Assembly: GCA_944321975.1 (NCBI GenBank)
Contig: CALUNJ010000009.1
Location: 1 to 44,586, forward strand
From: an uncultured Paraprevotella sp.
Lineage (GTDB): Bacteria > Bacteroidota > Bacteroidia > Bacteroidales > Bacteroidaceae
Reading direction: 5' to 3'
DNA: 44,586 bases
Part shown: positions 7,965 through 38,965 of the stretch, piece after piece
Layout: each line of letters starts with the position of its first letter
Numbering within the stretch: the stretch's first letter is position 1
Program-made: the position numbers and the translations under genes
The notes under the pieces: model-generated
Told to the model about the DNA's origin: nothing
Seen by the model: only the letters and a program-made list of their open reading frames with translations
Databases searched by the model: none

Positions 7965-9440
7965 ATGGATAAGAAAATTTTACTGCAAGAGCTGGCCGAA
8001 GGCGTGGCGCGGCGAAGGGATATTCCGAAACGGGATGCGGAAAACTTCCTCCGTGCGGTGTTCGACGTGTTGGGCGAATATCTCCAGTCGGATAAGATTG
8101 TGAAGATCCGTGGCCTGGGTACGTTTAAACTGGTGACGGTCGACAGCCGTGAGAGCGTGGACGTGAACACGGGCGAACGCATCATGATCAAGGAATATAC
8201 AAAGGTAAACTTCACGCCGGATCCAGTGTTGCGGGATGCGGTGAACAAGCCTTTTGCACAATTTGAGACCGTCGTGCTGTATGAAGGTACGAAGGTGGAG
8301 GACATGGAGCGGATGGATTTGCCAGACCTGAAAGAGTTCGGGGTGGAAATTCCCGGGATTTCTCCCGCAACGCCTGAAGTTGAAGAGACGTTTCAGGCGG
8401 GGGCGGATGAAACTGTGGCGGAAGCGGAAGGGGAGGATGCCGCAAAACGGACTGGAGAGGACGAATTTGACATCGAGACGGCTTCGATCGAGGAGGCGGA
8501 TGAGGATGGTTCCATGCTTCCGCGAGAAGAACATGCGCCGGAGGAGACGGCGGGCGGGACTGAGGCGGAGGGGGCTGCGGAAACTGCCGGGGCTTCGTCT
8601 CCGCAGCCGGAGAATGTCGTCACGGTGGGCGGACAAGGAGAACCCGCGTTAGGGGAAATGGCGGAGGAGGCCGTTGCGGAAAGCGAAGAGAAGGAAACGG
8701 GGGACCATGCCGGAGTTTCCCGGGAAAGTGCGGACGGGGAGAAGAAACAGGATGATTCGGTCCTGTCCGGGAGAGGTGAAAAATCCACACAAAACCAGCC
8801 GGACTGCGGGGTTCATGTGGAGACGCAGCAGATTGAAGTGCAAAAGGTGGAACACCAGACTGTAGCCAACCAGCATATCGTACAAATGTTGCCTGACAGC
8901 GGGCGAAGAAGAGTCTATCTGACTCCATGGATGATTTTCCTGATGGTGTTGTTTGTCATGGCGTTGGTCGTGGCAAGTTATTATGTGGGCTACAATCATT
9001 TGCTGGCACCGGGGGATGCCGCGAAAAAAAGTGATGCCGCCATCCGGAGGGAGAGCCCGGAGGCGAAGAACGCACCTGACAGCAAGGAAAATGGCTTGGC
9101 GGGTGATTCGCTGCCACCCCTGAAAAGCCTGTTCCCTTGGGTGCCCGTGTGCGACAGCGTGAAGCCGGAACGTGCAGATACGGCCCGGTTGGAGGAGGAG
9201 CCGCGCCGGAAGGGGCGCGTCTATCCCCAAGTCGAGAACGGGGCCTATGAGATTGTCGGGACTTTGGAGAGCCACCGTTTGCGCCGCGGGGAGACTTTGC
9301 GCGGGCTTGCTTTGAAATATTATGGCTCAAAGGATTTTACGGTCTATATTGTGGCGTATAACCGGATTGCCAATCCCGACTTGGTGCCGGAAGGGAAGGT
9401 GCTGAAGATGCCCCTTCTGAAGTTGAAGTCCCGTGAGTGA
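7965..9440 (+). CDS. HU domain - membrane segment - LysM fusion protein
   Basis: A 491-residue protein with an unusual layout. Residues 1-105 are an HU-like domain (VKIRGLGTFKLVTVDSRES, VNTGERIMIKEYTKVNFTPD). Residues about 115-310 are a low-complexity, Glu/Ala/Gly-rich acidic linker. A single hydrophobic segment follows at about 321-344 (PWMIFLMVLFVMALVV..). After a polar stretch, a LysM domain ends the protein (about 435-483: RRGETLRGLALKYYGS, YNRIANPDLVPEGKVLKMP). The simplest topology is HU in the cytoplasm and LysM on peptidoglycan, which would tether the nucleoid to the wall. That role is inference. The HU gene lies 12 bases upstream in the same operon. Confidence 0.88.
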   Translation: MDKKILLQELAEGVARRRDIPKRDAENFLRAVFDVLGEYLQSDKIVKIRGLGTFKLVTVDSRESVDVNTGERIMIKEYTKVNFTPDPVLRDAVNKPFAQFETVVLYEGTKVEDMERMDLPDLKEFGVEIPGISPATPEVEETFQAGADETVAEAEGEDAAKRTGEDEFDIETASIEEADEDGSMLPREEHAPEETAGGTEAEGAAETAGASSPQPENVVTVGGQGEPALGEMAEEAVAESEEKETGDHAGVSRESADGEKKQDDSVLSGRGEKSTQNQPDCGVHVETQQIEVQKVEHQTVANQHIVQMLPDSGRRRVYLTPWMIFLMVLFVMALVVASYYVGYNHLLAPGDAAKKSDAAIRRESPEAKNAPDSKENGLAGDSLPPLKSLFPWVPVCDSVKPERADTARLEEEPRRKGRVYPQVENGAYEIVGTLESHRLRRGETLRGLALKYYGSKDFTVYIVAYNRIANPDLVPEGKVLKMPLLKLKSRE

Positions 9441-9567: not shown

Positions 9568-9850
9568 CTTTCCGTAAATCCCCTTCCTGATTCATATTGT
9601 CCTATTTTGAGTTGGTTTTTATTTTGTTCATGATCAGCCGGATGGGTCCTCCTTGAAACGCGCGGGGTTTTCTCAGGCGATTCACATTTTTTTCTCAAGC
9701 GGTTCATCAATTTTTCTCAAGAGGAAAACTTGCATTCCTCTTGAGGGCGATTTTGTCCTATTCCGCCACGTTGTCTTTTCCTTCCCTCACGAGGGGGCAG
9801 AAGCGTCTTCCGCTTTCAGCGCCGCCAGTTTTTTGGGCATCCCCGCCCCG
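9568..9850 (+). repeat. dispersed intergenic repeat, copy 2 (most complete)
   Basis: The clearest copy. The left arm (TTTCCGTAA, CCTATTTTG at 9601, CTTGAAACGCGCGGGG) leads to the core at 9671. Four units spaced 22 bases apart start at 9671, 9693, 9715 and 9737: CTCAGGCGATTCACA+T7, CTCAAGCGGTTCATC.., CTCAAGAGG.., CTCTTGAGGG. The right arm carries GATTTTGTCCTATTCCGCC, ACGTTGTCTTTTCC, CCTCACGAGG and TCAGCGCCGCC, shared with copies 1 and 3. It sits between the HU-LysM gene and the bat operon promoter. A reading frame stays open across it (9653-10048), but I do not call it a gene. Confidence 0.85.
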
Positions 9851-10074
9851 GATCGGCAGTTCCGTTTTCTCCCTATGGCGAGAGGTGTAAGATTTTTCCG
9901 CTCCAGTCTCATGAAATATAGGGCCGTTTCCCCGCAAATCCCACGCCCCTTGTTCTTGCGGGTGAGCCGGGTTGCTTTTATGGGTGAAAAACGTTTGGCA
10001 CTTTCTTGTGGCCTTGCAGAGCCAAAAAGTTTCTTAAATAGTCAATAGGGCAACTTTTTTTAATAGCCATAGTG
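9851..10074. other. intergenic stretch before the bat operon
   Basis: Between the repeat and the MoxR promoter I see no gene, RNA or strong hairpin. The open frame here continues from the repeat and lacks the composition of the neighbouring genes. Confidence 0.5.
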
Positions 10075-10150: not shown

Positions 10151-11146
10151 ATGGCTGAAGCGATAGATATTCGCGAATTAAATGAGCGAATCGAAAAACA
10201 AAGTGCTTTTGTGACGAATTTGGTGACCGGTATGAACCAGGTGATTGTGGGCCAGAAGCATTTGGTGGAATCCCTCTTGATAGGTTTGTTGAGTGACGGG
10301 CATGTGTTGTTGGAAGGCGTTCCGGGATTGGCCAAGACGTTGGCCATCAAGACGCTTGCCTCCTTGATTGACGGGAAATTCAGCCGGGTGCAATTCACGC
10401 CCGATTTGCTTCCTGCCGATGTGATTGGCACCATGATGTACAGTCAAAAGGACGAGACCTTCATCGCTCAACGAGGCCCGATTTTTGCCAATTTCGTGTT
10501 GGCGGATGAGATCAACCGCGCGCCGGCCAAAGTGCAGAGCGCGCTGCTCGAGGCGATGCAGGAACGCCAGGTGACCATCGGCAAGGAGACTTATGGACTG
10601 CCCGAACCCTTCCTGGTGTTGGCCACACAGAACCCGATAGAGCAGGAGGGGACTTATCCGCTCCCGGAGGCGCAGGTGGACCGTTTCATGCTGAAGGTGA
10701 TTATCGACTATCCGAAGCTGGAGGAGGAAAAGAAAATCATCCGCCAGCAGATCGGGGGCGAGAAACCGTCGGTGCGCCCGATCATGGGGACGTCCGAGAT
10801 CCTTTCGGCAAGAAACGTGGTGCGCGAGGTCTATTTGGACGAGAAGATCGAGCAATACATTGCAGACATCGTTTTTGCCACCCGTTTCCCGGATCAGTAT
10901 GGGCTGAAAGACCTGAAGAATTACATCGAGTTCGGGGGCTCGCCTCGTGCGTCCATCAATCTGGCTTTGGCGGCCCGTGCCTATGCCTTCATCAAGCGCC
11001 GCGGGTATGTGATTCCCGAAGACGTGCGTGCCGTGGCCCACGACGTGCTCCGCCACCGCATCGGGCTGTCTTATGAGGCCGAGGCAAATAATGTCACCAG
11101 CGAGGAGATTATCAGTCAGATATTGAATAAGGTGGAAGTTCCTTAA
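10151..11146 (+). CDS. MoxR-family AAA+ ATPase of the bat operon
   Basis: A 331-residue AAA+ chaperone-like ATPase, the first gene of the bat operon. It has Walker A GVPGLAKT (56-63), Walker B VLADE (116-120), the MoxR insert ALLEAMQERQVTIG and the sensor-type TQNPIEQEGTYPLPEAQVDRFM. MoxR proteins are thought to assemble or remodel partner proteins together with the von Willebrand A proteins encoded downstream. The DUF58 gene starts 9 bases later, as in the conserved MoxR-DUF58-vWA layout. Cytoplasmic. Confidence 0.95.
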   Translation: MAEAIDIRELNERIEKQSAFVTNLVTGMNQVIVGQKHLVESLLIGLLSDGHVLLEGVPGLAKTLAIKTLASLIDGKFSRVQFTPDLLPADVIGTMMYSQKDETFIAQRGPIFANFVLADEINRAPAKVQSALLEAMQERQVTIGKETYGLPEPFLVLATQNPIEQEGTYPLPEAQVDRFMLKVIIDYPKLEEEKKIIRQQIGGEKPSVRPIMGTSEILSARNVVREVYLDEKIEQYIADIVFATRFPDQYGLKDLKNYIEFGGSPRASINLALAARAYAFIKRRGYVIPEDVRAVAHDVLRHRIGLSYEAEANNVTSEEIISQILNKVEVP

Positions 11147-11155
11147 TGTGCGGGG

Positions 11156-12034
11156 ATGGCTGGGATGGATACAAGTGAAATCTTAAAGCGGGTCCGCCAG
11201 ATCGAGATTAAGACCAGGGGGCTGTCCAACAACATCTTCGCCGGAGAATACCATTCGGCGTTCAAGGGCAGGGGTATGGCTTTCTCCGAGGTGCGCGAAT
11301 ATCAGTATGGCGACGACATCAGGGACATTGACTGGAATGTGACGGCACGGTTCAACCGTCCGTTCGTGAAGGTCTTCGAAGAAGAGCGGGAACTGACGGT
11401 CATGTTGCTGATCGACGTGTCCGGAAGTCTGAATTTCGGCACGGTCTCCCAAACCAAGCGCGACATGGTGACGGAGATTGCCGCCACGTTGGCTTTTTCT
11501 GCCATCCAGAATAACGACAAGATAGGAGTGATTTTCTTTTCCGACCGGATAGAGAAGTTCATTCCTCCCAAGAAAGGAAGGAAACACATTCTCCGCATCA
11601 TCCGCGAGCTGCTGGACTTTGCTCCCGAAAGCCGGCTGACCGATGTCGGGCAGGCGGTGGAATATCTGACCCAAGTGATCAAACGGCGTTGCACGGCGTT
11701 TCTCCTGAGCGATTTTATCGACCGGAAAGACTATCGGACCGCGCTGACCGTGGCCAATCAGAAACATGACGTGGTGGCCATCCAGGTCTTTGACCGCCGC
11801 ATGGCTGAATTGCCGGACGTGGGGCTGATGAAGGTGCATGACGCGGAGACGGGGCATGAGCAGTATATCGACACGTCGAGCCGCCGGGTGCGCCAGGCTC
11901 ACCGCGAGTGGTGGCGGAACCGCCAGAGCGTGTTGCAGGACGTGTTCACCAAGAGCAACGTGGACTCGGTGTCCATCCGCACGGATCAGGATTATGTGTC
12001 TTCGCTGAAAACCTTGTTTGCCAAACGAAGTTAA
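11156..12034 (+). CDS. DUF58 / vWA-like protein of the bat operon
   Basis: A 292-residue protein with the DUF58 signature GRGMAFSEVREYQYGDDIRDIDWNVTAR near the N-terminus, and a vWA-type metal site in LLIDVSGSLNFG (about residues 83-94, the DxSxS pattern). No membrane segment is apparent, so it is probably cytoplasmic. It is the usual partner of MoxR ATPases. An alternative ATG lies 9 bases further in (11165), giving MDTSEILKRVRQIE; I kept the upstream start. The next gene begins 4 bases after its stop. Confidence 0.92.
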   Translation: MAGMDTSEILKRVRQIEIKTRGLSNNIFAGEYHSAFKGRGMAFSEVREYQYGDDIRDIDWNVTARFNRPFVKVFEEERELTVMLLIDVSGSLNFGTVSQTKRDMVTEIAATLAFSAIQNNDKIGVIFFSDRIEKFIPPKKGRKHILRIIRELLDFAPESRLTDVGQAVEYLTQVIKRRCTAFLLSDFIDRKDYRTALTVANQKHDVVAIQVFDRRMAELPDVGLMKVHDAETGHEQYIDTSSRRVRQAHREWWRNRQSVLQDVFTKSNVDSVSIRTDQDYVSSLKTLFAKRS

Positions 12035-12038
12035 ACAA

Positions 12039-13139
12039 ATGGATAGTTTTTATTATAAATGCAAGTGGTTGCCGTGTGTGGCGTTATGGGCTTTGATGAT
12101 TTTTGCCTGTGGCGTCGCCCGGGCACAAGTCACAGTGGATGTGAGGATAGATTCCTTGGAACTTTTTGTGGGGGAACAGGCACATATCACGTTGGAAGTG
12201 AGTGCGGACGCAAAATCGCGGATGACGCTTCCGCAAGTCAAGGCCGGCGACATGCTCACGCCGGGGGTGGAAGTCGTGGAGGTGACCCGGGCCGACACCC
12301 AGCGGTTGAACGAAAACGCGCGCATTCTGGTGTCGCAACGCTATTGCGTGACTTCGTTTGATTCTGCCTTCTATTATCTCCCCCCCTTTGTGGTCGACGT
12401 GGACGGCAAGGAGTATCAGTCGAAAAACCTGGCCTTGCGTGTGCTCTCTGTGCCGGTCGACACGGTGCACACGGACCAGTTCTATGGGCCGAAAGAAATC
12501 ATGAAAGTGCCTTTTTCCTGGGCCGACTGGTCGCCGATATTCTGGTTGTCGCTCTTGTTGCTCGCATGGACGCTTCTGCTGACCTATTTCTATATCCGCT
12601 ATCGGGACAACAAGCCGATCATCAAGATTATCAAATTGGCTCCGAAGGTGCTTCCGCACACGAAAGCCATGCAGGAAATCGACCAGATCAAGGCTGAAAA
12701 GGCATGGGCCAAGGAAGACTCGAAGGAGTATTACACCCGCTTGACCTCTATCTTGCGCACGTATATCGAGAAACGCTATGGGTTCAACGCCATGGAGATG
12801 ACTTCGGCTGAAATCATCGACCGGCTGCTGACGGAAAACGCGGAAAGCCTTGATGAACTGCGCGCGTTGTTCCAGACGGCCGATTTGGTGAAGTTTGCCA
12901 AATACAGCACCTTGATCAACGAGAATGACGCGAACCTGGTGAATGCGATAGAGTTTATCAACCAGACCAAGAGGGAGGCCGATCCGAAGGCGCAGGCCGT
13001 GCCCGACGAAGTGGTGGTGGAACAAAAACGCAGTCGCCGCACGCTGTTGGGCATGCGGGTGGGGCTTGCCGTGGCCACTTTGGCCGGTGTGGCCTTGTTG
13101 GTGTGGATCTGTGGGATGGTGTATGAGTTAATCGCTTAA
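12039..13139 (+). CDS. BatD-like membrane protein between DUF58 and batA
   Basis: A 366-residue envelope protein. From ATG 12039 it has a signal peptide ending near ACGVARAQ, a periplasmic beta-rich region resembling the N-terminus of BatD (about 25-150), a membrane segment near residues 166-188 (PIFWLSLLLLAWTLLLTYFYI), a cytoplasmic helical stretch with EEYYTRLTSILRTYIEKRYG-like spacing (seen as KEYYTRLTSILRTYIEKRY), and a final membrane segment near the C-terminus. An upstream in-frame ATG at 12018 would overlap the DUF58 gene and bury the signal peptide. Probably supplies a ligand-presenting part to the Bat complex (inference). Confidence 0.82.
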   Translation: MDSFYYKCKWLPCVALWALMIFACGVARAQVTVDVRIDSLELFVGEQAHITLEVSADAKSRMTLPQVKAGDMLTPGVEVVEVTRADTQRLNENARILVSQRYCVTSFDSAFYYLPPFVVDVDGKEYQSKNLALRVLSVPVDTVHTDQFYGPKEIMKVPFSWADWSPIFWLSLLLLAWTLLLTYFYIRYRDNKPIIKIIKLAPKVLPHTKAMQEIDQIKAEKAWAKEDSKEYYTRLTSILRTYIEKRYGFNAMEMTSAEIIDRLLTENAESLDELRALFQTADLVKFAKYSTLINENDANLVNAIEFINQTKREADPKAQAVPDEVVVEQKRSRRTLLGMRVGLAVATLAGVALLVWICGMVYELIA

Positions 13140-13154
13140 AAAGAGAAAAGTAAG

Positions 13155-14153
13155 ATGACATTTGCAAATATTGAATATTTCTTTTTGCTATTTCTGCTCA
13201 TACCTTATATATTATGGTATGTGCTTAAGAACAAACAGAAGGAACCCACTTTGCAGGTACCCGACACGACGGCCTATCGCTATGTCCCCAAGAGCTATAA
13301 GAACCATCTGATCCACGTGCCCTTCATATTGCGGCTTCTCACGTTTGTCATGATAGTGGTGGTGCTTGCGCGCCCTCAGACGAGCAACAGTTGGAAAAAT
13401 ACGCAGGTGGAAGGCATTGACATCATGTTGGCGGTGGATGTGTCCACCAGCATGTTGGCGGAAGACCTGAAGCCGAATCGCTTGGAAGCGGCCAAGCAAG
13501 TGGCTTCGGAGTTTATTGCCGGACGCCCGAATGACAACATCGGGTTGACGATTTTTGCCGGAGAGGCTTTCACCCAATGTCCGATGACAACAGACCATGC
13601 CGTGTTGCTGAATCTGTTCCATGGCTTGAAAACCGACATGGCGCAGCGGGGAATGATAGAGGACGGCACAGCCGTGGGCATGGGCATCGCCAACGCAGTT
13701 TCGCGTCTGAAAGACAGCAAGGCCAAGAGCAAGGTGGTCATCTTGCTGACCGATGGGACAAACAATGCCGGCGACATCTCGCCGATGATGGCGGCCGAGA
13801 TTGCTAAAAGTTTTGGCATAAGGGTTTATACGATCGGAGTGGGCACCAACGGGCTTGCGCCTTATCCCATGCCGGTGGCCGGAGGGGTCCAATACTTGAA
13901 CATCCCGGTGGAGATCGACACCAAGACTTTGGCGGCTATCGCCGGGAAAACCGACGGCGAGTTCTATCGGGCCACGGACAATAAGAAATTGGAAGAAGTC
14001 TATAAGGACATAGACAAATTGGAAAAGACGAAGTTGAATGTCAAGCAATACAGCAAACGCTATGAAGCATACGCCTTGTTTGCCTGGATCGCGGCTGTGA
14101 GTCTGTTGCTGGAGATTTTGCTGCGCACGACGATATTGAAGAAAATCCCTTAA
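13155..14153 (+). CDS. batA: BatA, vWA membrane protein
   Basis: A 332-residue inner-membrane protein of the Bacteroides aerotolerance (bat) operon. Two N-terminal hydrophobic segments (about 8-24 and 57-73), a vWA domain with an intact metal-ion site DVSTS (D95, S97, S99) followed by MLAEDLKPNRLEAAK, and a C-terminal membrane helix (about 300-324, ALFAWIAAVSLLLEILL). The conserved Thr of the metal site lies in MIEDGTAVGMGI. Bat proteins were linked to oxygen tolerance in B. fragilis; their biochemical role is unclear. batB follows 12 bases later and is a paralogue. Confidence 0.94.
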   Translation: MTFANIEYFFLLFLLIPYILWYVLKNKQKEPTLQVPDTTAYRYVPKSYKNHLIHVPFILRLLTFVMIVVVLARPQTSNSWKNTQVEGIDIMLAVDVSTSMLAEDLKPNRLEAAKQVASEFIAGRPNDNIGLTIFAGEAFTQCPMTTDHAVLLNLFHGLKTDMAQRGMIEDGTAVGMGIANAVSRLKDSKAKSKVVILLTDGTNNAGDISPMMAAEIAKSFGIRVYTIGVGTNGLAPYPMPVAGGVQYLNIPVEIDTKTLAAIAGKTDGEFYRATDNKKLEEVYKDIDKLEKTKLNVKQYSKRYEAYALFAWIAAVSLLLEILLRTTILKKIP

Positions 14154-14165
14154 TTTGTTCAGACT

Positions 14166-15191
14166 ATGTTTCGTTTTGAAGACCCATTATATTTGTATTT
14201 GCTCCTGCTGGTTCCGGCATTGGCCGGATTGCACTATGCTACGAATTATTTTCGCAAGAAGCGGCTTGCCCGTTACGGCGACATTCGGTTGCTGAAAGAA
14301 CTGATGCCGGAGGTTTCGGTGGCGCGTCGCGAGGTGAAAATGTGGCTGATGTTGTTGGCCTTCGCCATGCTGGTGTGTGCATTGGCGCGCCCGCAGTTCG
14401 GCACAAAGGAAGAAACCCTCAAGCGGCAGGGCATAGAAGCTATTATTGCGATGGATGTGTCGAACTCCATGTTGGCGGAAGACGTGACGCCAAGCCGTCT
14501 GGATAAGGCGAAAATGTTGGTGAGCAGCATCGTGGACAAAATGACAGAGGACAAGATCGGGCTGATTGTCTATGCGGGGGAGGCTTATACCCAGTTGCCC
14601 ATCACGAGTGATTACGTGTCGGCGAAAATGTTCCTTGAGACAATTTCCCCGGCCATGATTACCACGCAGGGCACGGACATCAAGCAAGCCGTGGATTTGG
14701 CGATGAAGAGCTTTACTCCGAACCAGAATGTAAGCAAGGCGATTTTCGTCATTACAGATGGTGAGGACAACGAAGGAGGAGCTGTGGAGATGGCCAGGGC
14801 GGCGGCCGAAAAGGGGATAAAAGTATATATCCTTGGGATTGGGTCGCCGCAGGGGGCACCGATACCGATGCCCGGAAACGCCTCGCAGTATATCACGGAT
14901 AATGGAGGCAATGTGGTTGTGTCCAAACTGAATGAGCAGATGTGCCGCGACATTGCCGCCGCCGGGCAGGGGGCTTATATTTATGTGGATAACAGTTCGT
15001 CCGCCCAAGAGCAGCTTTCGGGATATGTGGACAAGCTGGGCAAGGCGGAAATGGAAAGCAAAGTGTTCTCTGAATACGACGAGCAGTTTCAGGCCGTGGC
15101 TTTGCTCGCTTTGTTTTTCCTGATGCTGGAGGTGTGCATTATTGAGCGGAAGAACCCGTTGTTTAAAGGAATCAAATTGTTTCGGAAATGA
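14166..15191 (+). CDS. batB: BatB, vWA membrane protein
   Basis: A 341-residue paralogue of the preceding BatA with the same plan: two N-terminal hydrophobic segments, a vWA domain with metal site DVSNS (D97, S99, S101) and MLAEDVTPSRLDKAK, TDIKQAVDLAM containing the metal-site Thr, and a final membrane helix (VALLALFFLMLEVCII). Likely forms a membrane complex with BatA. Its stop overlaps the batC start (ATGA), so translation of the two is coupled. Confidence 0.94.
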   Translation: MFRFEDPLYLYLLLLVPALAGLHYATNYFRKKRLARYGDIRLLKELMPEVSVARREVKMWLMLLAFAMLVCALARPQFGTKEETLKRQGIEAIIAMDVSNSMLAEDVTPSRLDKAKMLVSSIVDKMTEDKIGLIVYAGEAYTQLPITSDYVSAKMFLETISPAMITTQGTDIKQAVDLAMKSFTPNQNVSKAIFVITDGEDNEGGAVEMARAAAEKGIKVYILGIGSPQGAPIPMPGNASQYITDNGGNVVVSKLNEQMCRDIAAAGQGAYIYVDNSSSAQEQLSGYVDKLGKAEMESKVFSEYDEQFQAVALLALFFLMLEVCIIERKNPLFKGIKLFRK

Positions 15192-19919: not shown

Positions 19920-20019
19920 GCATTTAATCGCCGCATTCCGGCCATGTCATGCGCTTTTTTTATGGGCGCGGTAGCCGGCAGCAAAGTAAAGGGCAATGCA
20001 GGGACGCGGACAGGTGATT

Positions 20020-20260
20020 AGTGGGAGGCTGAGAGTTTGCAGCGTTGAAGCGGAAGAGCCCGATCGCCTCGTGAGGGAAAAGGCCACGTGGCGGAACAAG
20101 ACAAAACCGCCCTCAGGAGGAATGCAAATTTCCTTCAAGCGATTCACATTTTTTTTGCTTGAGAAAAAAATGTGAATCGCTTGAGAAAAATCCACGTTTC
20201 TCAAGATGGTGTCTACTTTGTTGATTATCAATAAAATAATATTTTCTTCAAAATAGGGCA
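20020..20260 (-). repeat. dispersed intergenic repeat, copy 3, with a perfect palindrome
   Basis: On the minus strand it runs CCTATTTTG, .. CTTGAGAAACGTGGA, core, then TTTGCATTCCTCCTGAGGG, CGGTTTTGTCTTGTTCCGCC, CCCTCACGAGG and CTTCCGCTTCAACGCTGC. The core at 20135-20184 is a perfect 21-bp inverted repeat (TCAAGCGATTCACA+T7 with its complement) around an 8-base loop. Such a structure could form a cruciform or a bidirectional terminator. Its left end abuts the transposase remnant. Confidence 0.85.
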
Positions 20261-20733: not shown

Positions 20734-23526
20734 TTATTTGGCGAACTTCAGTCCTTTGGTCGTTTGCCCGTCGGAGGCCCTCAGCACATAGATGCCTTTG
20801 GGCAGCGAGGAAATGTTCATGATATTTGTTCCGGCCTCCAGTTGCGCGTGCTGCATGAGCAGCCCGGAGATGGAATAGACCGCAGCTTGCACCCTGCGTG
20901 CAGACTTTACTTCGATTCCTGATGCCTTTAAGGACAATTCCAAAGCGCTTCCGTCTGTTTCCGTGCCGGATATGGCCATTTCACCTCCTCCTGTGGTTAC
21001 CGGTTCAAGCACGAACGTGAAATCCGAGGGCATTTCGGTCGTTTGGTCGCAGATCAGCGTTTCGCCGTTTGTTTCCCAGAAGTAACTTCCGGAGCGCTCC
21101 GGAGCCTGAATGAAGCATTCTTTTTCTCCTCCTCCTTGCATTAAATATAAGTCGTAGCTGCTCTTGGTGCGGCTATATACGCGGTCGGTCAGGACGCCTT
21201 CATTGTTCAGGTAGGCCGAGTCGTTATGGTTTTCGATCTTATACCGTTTGGCTGTGTCGTCCCAGGTGAAATGCCACACGTAAGCCGTGGTGTCTTCTTC
21301 GTTGCCCAGGGCCTCGAAATGCATGTTTTTGCTATTCAGATAGTCTCCCGTCTGGCGGTCTTTAATCCGGTAATACCCGTCTTCCAGATATTGTCCTTGT
21401 TTATAGACTTTTACCACAAAGTCGAAACTGGCTTCATAGGTTTTTACGGACGATGAGCTGTCCACCCAGTCCAAGTGGCGCTCAAAGGAGGTCTGGACAT
21501 TTTCGAAGCAGAGGGAGTCCGTGTGTTCACCGGAACTCCACGTGTGAATCCCGTTTCGGTAACGGAATGAGGTGGGTTCACCGATCAGGGTTATGTTTTT
21601 TCCTGTCGGGATAATAGCCCGTAGTCCGTTTTGTGCCACGCCGTCTACCTTAAGAATGGGGTTCACAACCGAATTCGTGATGGTGAATACTTGTTCAATC
21701 TGCACGCCGGATTCATTGGTCAGGATCAGACGGAGTGTTTGGTCTTTGTTGCCTTGCCTGAAGGAATAGGTGCCGTTGGTGGACAGCAGTTTTCCGCTTT
21801 CATCCAGCCAGCGTGTGTTGGCGATGTAATTCCAGTTGGCGTAGTCGGCTCCGAGCGTGACCGTGCGGCCGCTGACGGCACTGAAAGTCGAGGTGTTGGG
21901 CATGCGCACTTCGTCGTATTCCACCCAGGGGGTCAAGGTGGCGCGGATGCCTTCTCCGGTCACGGAAATGCAGAACATTTGGGTGCTCGTCACGCCGCGG
22001 GTGTTCGTGTAATGCACACGGTAGATGCCCGAAGTGTTGGCCGTGATGTCACGGCTTTGTCCGCTCACGCCATCTTCCCATTCCCATTTCCCGGTGTTTT
22101 CTTCCCCGTCGGGCAGTACGGCGGACAAGGTCATTTGAGTGCCTTTGGCCACGTTCTTCATTTCTGCATAGGGGCGTGTCTCGCCGCCTGTCTTGATTTC
22201 GGGAGAGAGTATGGTGGGTCTGTTTTCTTCCGTTACGGGCGTGTCGGAGTGCATCAGCGTCCCGAACCCGGTGTGGTCGAAACCTCCGCTGTTGGTCCCG
22301 TATGACCCTCCGCCGGCTTCGATGCCCACGATGGCTGTCATTCGTTTGCAGTATTCCATCGGGATGCCCATGCGGTTTTCATAATGGTTTACGAAGAGTT
22401 GCCATATCGGGCGCCACTGGCCGCGTCCCGTGCCGCTCAATCCTCCCATCCACCAGTTTTGCGTGTAAGGCATGTCTGCGGGATCCACCTGGTTGCAGTT
22501 GTACATGGCTACATATTCTGCCGCCCCGGCCACCATCGTTTTGCCGGCCATGCCGGGGATGAGCGGGTTGTAGAGGTTGCAGAAGGCATTGTCGCCTTGG
22601 TTGTAAGCCGACTGGAGCGCATAGGACAACAGCCCGAGCGCCGCCATGGCGTGTCCCTGGTCGCGTCCGCTTTCCTGCATCTGGTTGAGGTAGCCTTGCG
22701 GCCCGCGTTCGTCTTCGTGGAACCAAGGGAGGAGCCCCCAGCCGTATCCGCACATGCCTTGGTCTATTTTCCAAGGATGGCTTTCGCCCACGTAGAGCGA
22801 CTCATTGCCCGGTCCTTCTTTGATCCACCACATGCCATAGTTGTAAATGTCCGGCAGGTCGGCGAAGATGCCCAATGACACGCAGAAGAGCGCGTTGCCG
22901 AGTCCCCAGTTGCTATGGTAATGATACCAGTTTCCTTCACGGGTCACGGTGTCGTGGCGTCGTTCCAAAAAGTCTTGTGCCGTGGTGAACCACACGTCGA
23001 TCATCCATTGTTTGAAACGGTCGAAGTCGGCTTTTGCCCATCCTTCATAGTCGCGCATCAATTCGGCGGCGTTCAGGAATTGATAGCCGATGAATCCCGG
23101 CACGAGAGACTGGTTGGTGTTTCCGCCAATGCCTTTGGTGATCAAAGGATATTGGTTCAGCACGTAAAGGGCGCGGTCGGCCCATTGTTTTTCTCCCGTG
23201 ATTTTCCACAGCAAGGCGCATTGGTAGGCTTTTGCTGCGTTCCGATAGGCGTTCATGTAGTTTTCGTCCCCGGCGATGCCGCGTTTGATATATTCCGTCA
23301 CGCCCCAAATATCCTTTTCCGCCTTAACCGCCACCCAGCTGTTTTGCAATACGTTGAATGCTTGTACCGTGTGTGCGTCGTTTGCCGCCAGCTTTTGTTT
23401 GATTTGTTCGAAGTCCTGTTCTGTATGCAACAGTCCTGGGTGTACGAAAGCGCCTTGGGCTGCCAGGTTTCCGCCATTGCAGCAGAAAAAGACAGCCACC
23501 GCCCATAAAGTAAGTTTTTTCATCAT
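20734..23526 (-). CDS. secreted alginate-lyase-family protein with C-terminal sorting-like domain
   Basis: A 930-residue exported protein. After a signal peptide (MMKKLTLWAVAVFFCCNGGN.., cut near LAAQ) comes an alpha-barrel lyase-type domain (about 25-420) with NWYHYHSNWGLGNALFC, ESGRDQGHAMAALGLLSYA and GGGSYGTNSGGFDHTGFGTL, motifs seen in Bacteroidetes alginate-lyase-family proteins that cleave uronate polysaccharides. Several beta-rich modules follow (about 440-840). The last 75 residues (AVYSISGLLMQHAQLEAGTN, IMNISSLPKGIYVLRASDG) resemble the type A sorting domain of type IX secretion. The exact polysaccharide lyase family (perhaps PL38) and substrate are not determined. No SusCD pair is nearby. 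Confidence 0.85.
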   Translation of the reverse strand: MMKKLTLWAVAVFFCCNGGNLAAQGAFVHPGLLHTEQDFEQIKQKLAANDAHTVQAFNVLQNSWVAVKAEKDIWGVTEYIKRGIAGDENYMNAYRNAAKAYQCALLWKITGEKQWADRALYVLNQYPLITKGIGGNTNQSLVPGFIGYQFLNAAELMRDYEGWAKADFDRFKQWMIDVWFTTAQDFLERRHDTVTREGNWYHYHSNWGLGNALFCVSLGIFADLPDIYNYGMWWIKEGPGNESLYVGESHPWKIDQGMCGYGWGLLPWFHEDERGPQGYLNQMQESGRDQGHAMAALGLLSYALQSAYNQGDNAFCNLYNPLIPGMAGKTMVAGAAEYVAMYNCNQVDPADMPYTQNWWMGGLSGTGRGQWRPIWQLFVNHYENRMGIPMEYCKRMTAIVGIEAGGGSYGTNSGGFDHTGFGTLMHSDTPVTEENRPTILSPEIKTGGETRPYAEMKNVAKGTQMTLSAVLPDGEENTGKWEWEDGVSGQSRDITANTSGIYRVHYTNTRGVTSTQMFCISVTGEGIRATLTPWVEYDEVRMPNTSTFSAVSGRTVTLGADYANWNYIANTRWLDESGKLLSTNGTYSFRQGNKDQTLRLILTNESGVQIEQVFTITNSVVNPILKVDGVAQNGLRAIIPTGKNITLIGEPTSFRYRNGIHTWSSGEHTDSLCFENVQTSFERHLDWVDSSSSVKTYEASFDFVVKVYKQGQYLEDGYYRIKDRQTGDYLNSKNMHFEALGNEEDTTAYVWHFTWDDTAKRYKIENHNDSAYLNNEGVLTDRVYSRTKSSYDLYLMQGGGEKECFIQAPERSGSYFWETNGETLICDQTTEMPSDFTFVLEPVTTGGGEMAISGTETDGSALELSLKASGIEVKSARRVQAAVYSISGLLMQHAQLEAGTNIMNISSLPKGIYVLRASDGQTTKGLKFAK

Positions 23527-29065: not shown

Positions 29066-29127
29066 CTCTTGAGAAAAAAACAAGAATCGCTTGAGAAAAA
29101 AATGTGAATCGCTTGAGAAAAAAAAGG
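29066..29127 (-). repeat. dispersed intergenic repeat, copy 4 (core only)
   Basis: On the minus strand two 22-base units stand head to tail: CTCAAGCGATTCACA+T7, then CTCAAGCGATTCTTG+T7, then CTCAAGAGG. The right arm seen in copies 1-3 is missing. It lies between the convergent lipid kinase and Crp/Fnr genes. Confidence 0.8.
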
Positions 29128-38879: not shown

Positions 38880-38965
38880 TTGAAACACGCGGATTTCTCT
38901 CAAGCGATTCACATTTTTTTCTCAAGCGAGAAAGGATTTTTTCTCTTGAGAAAACTTGAAGACTG
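38880..38965 (+). repeat. dispersed intergenic repeat, copy 5 (left part and core)
   Basis: CTTGAAACACGCGGATT leads to units starting at 38899, 38921 and 38943: CTCAAGCGATTCACA+T7, CTCAAGCGAGAAAGG.., CTCTTGAGAAAA, again 22 bases apart. After the third unit it diverges; the right arm is absent. Confidence 0.8.

Follow-up and report, generated by a model that had tools for sequence, protein, structure and literature searches.

A 22-bp ladder of dyad-like sites, with and without an ISL3-type MITE, between genes of an uncultured Paraprevotella

The window, by which we mean the whole 44,586-nucleotide stretch that was analysed, is contig C9 of an uncultured Paraprevotella MAG (here G000; 2.65 Mb in 171 contigs, 86% complete). 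All five copies of an intergenic repeat that a sequence-only reading had listed were found in it. A tRNA-Gly gene (3-76, + strand) stands immediately ahead of copy 1, and by eye another copy of the family, L021, comes after tRNA-like sequence at a contig start. Just before copy 2 lies a 491-aa frame (7965-9440, + strand) for a DNA-binding protein whose N-terminal domain is HU/IHF-like; residues 8-95 are matched by NCBIfam IHF models at scores under the cut-offs. The stretch 10151-15191 (+ strand), which resembles a MoxR/Bat-type cluster, holds an AAA-type ATPase frame with weak chelatase/MoxR-like matches and then further frames, which have a common 83-nt repeat at 13413 and 14430. A 930-aa protein with a C-terminal type IX secretion sorting domain is encoded at 20734-23526 (- strand). 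The repeats themselves comprise the following features:

122-129: left target-site duplication of copy 1, CATTATTC, identical to the 8-mer at 520-527; register +/- one base
130-519, + strand: copy 1, a 390-bp MITE with left end CGGAGCAGTGGAAATTT and right end ...GGCTATTCCCGCTAAATTCCCTCGGCTC, from the end and duplication search; right-arm model at 410-520
333-406, + strand: core of copy 1, near-palindromic type, with 8-mers CTCAGGCG at 333 and CTCTTGAG at 399, 66 apart
520-527: right target-site duplication of copy 1, CATTATTC, from the end and duplication search
9568-9862, + strand: copy 2, arm-bearing, ends not delimited; right-arm model at 9749-9862
9672-9745, + strand: core ladder of copy 2, direct type, with CTCAGGCG at 9672, CTCAAGCG at 9694, CTCAAGAG at 9716 and CTCTTGAG at 9738
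20013-20260, - strand: copy 3, arm-bearing, ends not delimited; right-arm model at 20013-20108
20112-20185, - strand: core of copy 3, with strict 8-mers at 20112 and 20178, 66 apart
29066-29117, - strand: copy 4, a core-only ladder in a convergent gap, with 8-mers at 29066, 29088 and 29110
38899-38950, + strand: copy 5, a core-only ladder in a tandem gap, with 8-mers at 38899, 38921 and 38943

The 22-mer CTCAAGCGATTCACATTTTTTT was found with 0-3 mismatches at 333, 9672, 20134 and 38899 on the + strand and at 363, 20164, 29074 and 29096 on the - strand; a first-order Markov model of the window predicts 2e-8 exact matches on both strands. As had been noted from the letters alone, copies 1, 2 and 3 have a right arm in common, and CTTGA(A/G)A, read from the sequence, stands upstream in copies 1, 2, 3 and 5. 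In copies 4 and 5 the core is present without a match to the right-arm model. Copy 1 had been placed at 227-502, which needs correcting, as the mobile element spans 130-519.

Across G000, we found the core at no fewer than 164 distinct places, or about one per 16 kb of the 2.65 Mb; this number is a lower bound, being the union of the listed model matches, the listed exact places and the first search. The family is thus not confined to the five copies of the window. A 22-nt core word, allowing at most 2 mismatches, occurred at 132 + 119 places in G000, counts in which palindromic cores score twice. The same word occurred three times in G017, once in G009 and not at all in 15 of the 17 other genomes of the genus, and a reversed control word had no match in any of the 18. 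Most relatives are thus without this family. An exact 29-mer of the core was present in two GTDB r220 records, both uncultured Paraprevotella, in a collection that may omit the window's own genome. Spread by plasmids or phages was rejected, since a search of plasmids and phages with copy 2 gave no match and viral contigs held no exact 22-mer.

The core occurs both with and without its arms. Among the matches listed, the core model marks 137 distinct places in G000, and the right-arm model has 107 matches, 94 of which adjoin a listed core. Seven of the other 13 cover just the last part of the arm model and were taken as insertion sequence ends, and one, on contig C146, has an exact core. Seen from the core, 94 of the 137 listed places have the right arm and 43 have no match to it, some of the 43 keeping part of the left arm. 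When copies were chosen by the right arm alone (30 loci, one too short), 28 of 29 held the core, which is the best-conserved part of these 29 copies, with a mean pairwise identity of 0.85, as compared with 0.75 for the next 58 positions, 0.71 for the right arm and 0.60 for the left arm. The copies had been described as near-identical, which is apt for the core and not for the arms. The family is composite: at 94 or more places, the core adjoins the right arm of a non-autonomous MITE. Among single copies, L153 bears arms between which the ladder has collapsed, and L187 is truncated and has no core.

A non-autonomous mobile element had been one of the early suggestions for these repeats, and the arm-bearing copies bear it out through their inverted ends, target duplications and a related insertion sequence; core-only copies, 4 and 5 included, lack the arms and terminal repeats of a MITE. 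Long copies measure about 280-470 bp, which leaves no room for a transposase gene of their own, and they end in inverted repeats of the GGRGCAGTAGRAATTTAGYGGGG type. This terminal repeat was matched in 8 of the 18 genus genomes. In G007 a 1423-bp insertion sequence is delimited by this repeat; the insertion sequence has two frames, and the second encodes a 330-aa DDE_Tnp_ISL3 transposase (PF01610, 178 bits), so that the arm-bearing copies have terminal inverted repeats in common with an autonomous element. In G000 we found matching ends and, where contig C92 starts, part of a PF01610 frame; the complete insertion sequence was seen in G007 only. The terminal repeat also lies about 50-90 bases from the ends of G000 contigs C134, C137, C21, C11 and C2, as expected if the assembly breaks at a multi-copy insertion sequence. 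The elements resemble ISL3-family insertion sequences (PF01610) in their inverted ends and, by eye, in a right arm similar to the end of the transposase gene, and differ from them in being short and in having an added ladder. Two 361-bp shortened ISL3 copies, L141 (1727-2087, in G007) and L127 (1501-1861, in G009), retain no more of the transposase gene than its end.

Flanking 8-bp duplications with an agreement of at least 7/8 were present at 6 of 32 two-ended copies, copy 1 included, and absent from the other 26. In the first set of arm-bearing copies, 5 of 22 two-ended copies had such a target-site duplication, one of which (L046) is G-rich; shuffled partners gave a mean of 0.54, and 0 of 1000 shuffles reached 5. 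The second set consisted of 28 arm-chosen copies, none of them in the first duplication or gene-context sets, and 1 of its 10 two-ended copies had a target-site duplication (L173, a perfect one), a result equalled in 92 of 1000 shuffles and so by itself not above chance. In seven other short or complete elements inspected by eye, a duplication was seen at L157 (8/8) and L159 (7/8), and not at L141, L143, L146, L151 or L158.

Within the arms, where these are present, the core of all copies consists of CTC-NN-GAG-like 8-mers at intervals of 22, 44 and 66 bp; the spacers are A/T-rich and 14 bp long. Using the 8-mers CTCNNGNG or CNCNNGAG in 103 G000 copies, we counted 148 pairs at a spacing of 22, 104 at 44 and 68 at 66, whereas shuffled sequence gave no pair at 22. 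Three strict sites in an unbroken chain were present in 20/29 core-only and 23/74 arm-bearing copies. In the window, copies 2, 4 and 5 have such chains, in copies 1 and 3 the strict sites are separated by 66 and the sites in between are weaker (in copy 1, TGCTTGAG at 355 and CGCTTGAA at 377, which were read off the letters and lie outside the strict pattern), and no chain formed at the spacings 14-21 and 24-33.

The spacing is well kept, even though homopolymers lie within the ladder. The distance from first to third site was 44 in 62/72 arm-bearing and 27/28 core-only copies, and that from first to fourth site was 66 in 61/66 and 12/13, while three arm distances were at their mode in only 7/17, 15/32 and 21/38 copies, a comparison that favours the ladder somewhat because the script picked the match closest to expectation for ladder sites, whereas arm landmarks were represented by their first or last match. 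The distance from CTTGA to the first site was 20 bp in 33/34 copies, which is not a 22-bp step, and that from the first site to the right GTCCTAT was 83 bp in 40/51. Since the G000 copies descend from one another, their ladder spacing is not independent from copy to copy. Many cores are also palindromic; in copy 3 a palindrome with 21-bp arms and an 8-nt loop lies at 20135-20184. In 53 distinct palindromic cores of G000 the arms keep the word, and joint changes numbered 8 as compared with a shuffle mean of 11.4, so there is no covariation: it is the word as DNA that is conserved, not the stem. Non-palindromic cores were found in 24/74 arm-bearing and 23/29 core-only copies.

In agreement with the sequence-only reading, the elements lie between genes: 0 of 103 G000 copies overlapped genes predicted with a home-made codon-usage script, and in the second set 1 of 28 overlapped a weak predicted frame. 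Where both neighbours were known (n = 83), 38 of the gaps were convergent, 5 divergent and 40 tandem, and the second set (n = 23) gave 13, 1 and 9, for a total of 51 convergent and 6 divergent gaps. As convergent gaps alternate with divergent ones along a chromosome, in roughly equal numbers, a split of 38 to 5 departs strongly from parity (two-sided binomial 2.5e-7).

Arrays of the 8-mers with other spacers were found in three genomes of the same genus, G012, G014 and G015. The G000 8-mer pattern occurred at spacings of 22 (7), 44 (1) and 66 (2) in the 23 arrays of G012, 22 (4) and 44 (3) in the 15 of G014, and 22 (3) and 44 (1) in the five of G015, and a looser pattern at 22 (9), 44 (7) and 66 (3) in G012 and at 22 (6), 44 (5) and 66 (1) in G014; as these arrays were detected with the G000 core model or with a word holding one site, the method of detection guarantees one site in most of them but does not impose the spacing. 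The word CTCNNGAGAWTGAWWWWTC was found 35 times in G014 and 27 times in G012, a genome outside the family sample, and not in the other 150 genomes of that sample, its reversed control being absent throughout. Searches with copy 2 gave no match in G012, G014 or G015, in which the MITE end had 1, 0 and 0 matches, respectively. Chains of three strict sites were absent from 400 kb of G001, G007, G009, G016 and G017, by a test that is insensitive, since it likewise found none in 200 kb of G012, a genome with arrays.

The relatives' arrays likewise favour convergent gaps. In 16 blocks of G012 and G014, an array stood in 7/14 convergent, 0/22 divergent and 4/62 tandem gaps of at least 80 bp, the blocks having been picked for holding model matches and at least one gap (L228/L234, orthologous) being counted in both species; the array detector found none in shuffled gaps. 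Between one convergent gene pair, G015 and G012 have arrays of different words (L194/L259), and the flanking frames are 92% and 79% identical. Array gaps common to G000 and a relative on both flanks were L173/L255 and L108/L270; L049/L229 is a common gap with 4 kb extra between the flanks in G012, L068/L277 has a weak second flank, and L076/L294 and L023/L280 match on one flank only. We do not claim a conserved array position between G000 and its relatives, as an automated comparison matched 2/11 array gaps and 16/87 others, many matches being low-identity paralogues, and as L173 has a perfect target-site duplication in a gap that holds a G012 array, so that common gaps can come from separate insertion.

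The explanation we favour, with a probability of roughly 45%, is that the ladder is bound by a putative host protein at gene ends and was captured and spread by a MITE. An ISL3-type transposase, acting in trans, would most likely have moved the arm-bearing element, duplicating about 8 bp of target. Steps of 22 bp come close to two helical turns, which puts all sites on the same face of the helix; this arrangement of dyad-like sites, a spacing and word kept as DNA, and a location where transcription converges led us to propose a putative dimeric host protein that most likely binds the 22-bp ladder cooperatively. Such a protein may mark or insulate gene 3' ends, mainly between convergent genes, with other spacer words serving related species, and in the G000 lineage the MITE would have captured the ladder and then amplified it. 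The early suggestion of a chromosome-organisation site would fit both the conserved 22-bp spacing and the bias towards gene ends. If the ladder did act as a boundary through a bound protein, some bacteria would possess a repeat-coded means of keeping converging genes apart, one whose words differ between related species and which a transposon spreads.

The close rival of the protein-bound ladder, which we regard as a quite possible account, is a purely selfish repeat: a MITE burst with decayed copies, in which the core has no host role and owes its conservation to the requirements of transposition, to recency or to gene conversion, any of which the core identity could reflect, and in which the gene-end placement comes from purged insertions. 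The gene-end bias is indeed equally expected from the purging of insertions in genes and promoters, and the lack of overlap with predicted genes, the single weak frame apart, fits such purging. The MITE ends, the duplications and the related insertion sequence also speak for it, as do the collapsed ladder of L153, the core-less L187 and the perfect duplication of L173 in a gap holding a G012 array. A known precedent is BrickBuilt of Porphyromonas gingivalis, a MITE described (PMC4596501) as having 19 copies, IS5-type ends and inner 23-nt direct repeats, and of which 3/19 copies are without either flanking segment. Our family resembles it in being a Bacteroidales MITE with an inner array, always between genes, with ends resembling a resident insertion sequence and with arrays that also occur without flanks; it differs in occupying no fewer than 164 places, in its ISL3-type ends, in ladders of 22 bp that are direct or inverted, and in the other-word arrays of relatives, and by-eye comparison with the published description found neither the IS5-type ends nor the 23-nt repeat of BrickBuilt here (PMC4596501). 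What a selfish repeat accounts for less well, while covering placement and the MITE, is the 43 of 137 listed cores without a right arm and the other-spacer arrays of three relatives in which copy 2 has no match and the MITE end next to none; the ladder spacing, better kept than the three arm distances, also counts against it. Even a selfish origin would leave the same array type found alone and inside a mobile element.

That the palindromes act in RNA, as hairpins at 3' ends, terminating or protecting transcripts from both sides of convergent gaps, seems to us improbable. It would suit the bias to convergent gaps, the long stems in G000, G012, G014 and G015 and the A-stem-T polarity of some relatives' arrays. 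However, selection on an RNA stem was rejected because the stem arms of the 53 G000 palindromes lack covariation, and an intrinsic terminator (a GC-rich stem, then a T run) because scans were empty at copy 4 and within copy 3; the early suggestion of termination or RNA-processing sites thus found no support in these tests. In addition, most G000 palindromes are flanked by T runs on the 5' side of the stem and by A runs on its 3' side, the reverse of what an intrinsic terminator needs, and many copies, as counted above, are not palindromic. A known structured RNA was rejected as well, as Rfam 15 at gathering score matched just a tRNA in the window. As a separate observation, the copy-3 region held 4 promoter-like matches versus 0.7 in shuffles, two of them inside the core (20134-20185, on both strands), which leaves open a possible promoter role for the copy-3 core.

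REP/REPIN elements moved by a RAYT transposase, suggested by more than 100 often palindromic places between genes, are very improbable and were rejected, since Y1_Tnp was found neither in G000 (86% complete) nor in 16 of the 17 other genus genomes, the sole match among the 18 being in G009. The REP, BIME and REPIN families (PMC3116915, PMC2817692, PMC3733652) resemble ours as many short intergenic palindromic repeats in single or composite arrays, and a GTAG or CGTC tag at one palindrome end is given as a REP/REPIN feature (PMC3733652); ours differs in the 22-bp ladder, in its partial location inside an ISL3-type MITE and in a genome in which no RAYT was found.

A MITE with an inner 23-nt array in the same order and intergenic palindromic repeats are already known (PMC4596501, PMC3116915). 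In the open-access PMC literature we met no 22-bp dyad ladder that occurs with and without an ISL3-type MITE and has species-specific words, and no report of the family, which may still be in print; matches to the core words themselves were in unrelated papers only. Returning to the protein-bound ladder, the stronger proposal that it forms a new class of chromosomal boundary site in some Paraprevotella species, with species-specific words, a putative protein bound cooperatively at convergent ends and multiplication by an ISL3-type MITE, is one we offer tentatively and consider possible but less likely than not.

The palindromic arrays also appear to invert at their centres. Since a perfect palindrome looks identical on either strand, an unoriented count of loops depends on the strand kept, and we therefore used arm-oriented copies: among 50 palindromic G000 copies the loop was of the CTTGAG type in 31, of the CTCAAG type in 18 and self-complementary in 1. 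Eleven orthologous G012/G014 array pairs were aligned, and six, picked by eye, were tested for centre inversion. Inverting 22 bases reduced the differences in L221/L243 from 10/68 to 0, and inversion reduced those in L202/L296 from 9 to 3; under a control of random substitution the gain was at most 3, and 0 of 300 trials reached either pair. The gain was 2 for L259/L293 (6/300) and 1 for L260/L254 (67/300), and L280/L299 and L258/L196 gained nothing. Small inversions linked to hairpins in chloroplast spacers are similar (PMC2903610) in that inversion is tied to an intergenic palindrome, and differ from the bacterial ladder arrays described here. Even if the repeat is selfish, orthologous G012/G014 arrays that lie in flanks about 90-95% identical and differ by a centre inversion make this mutational process measurable.
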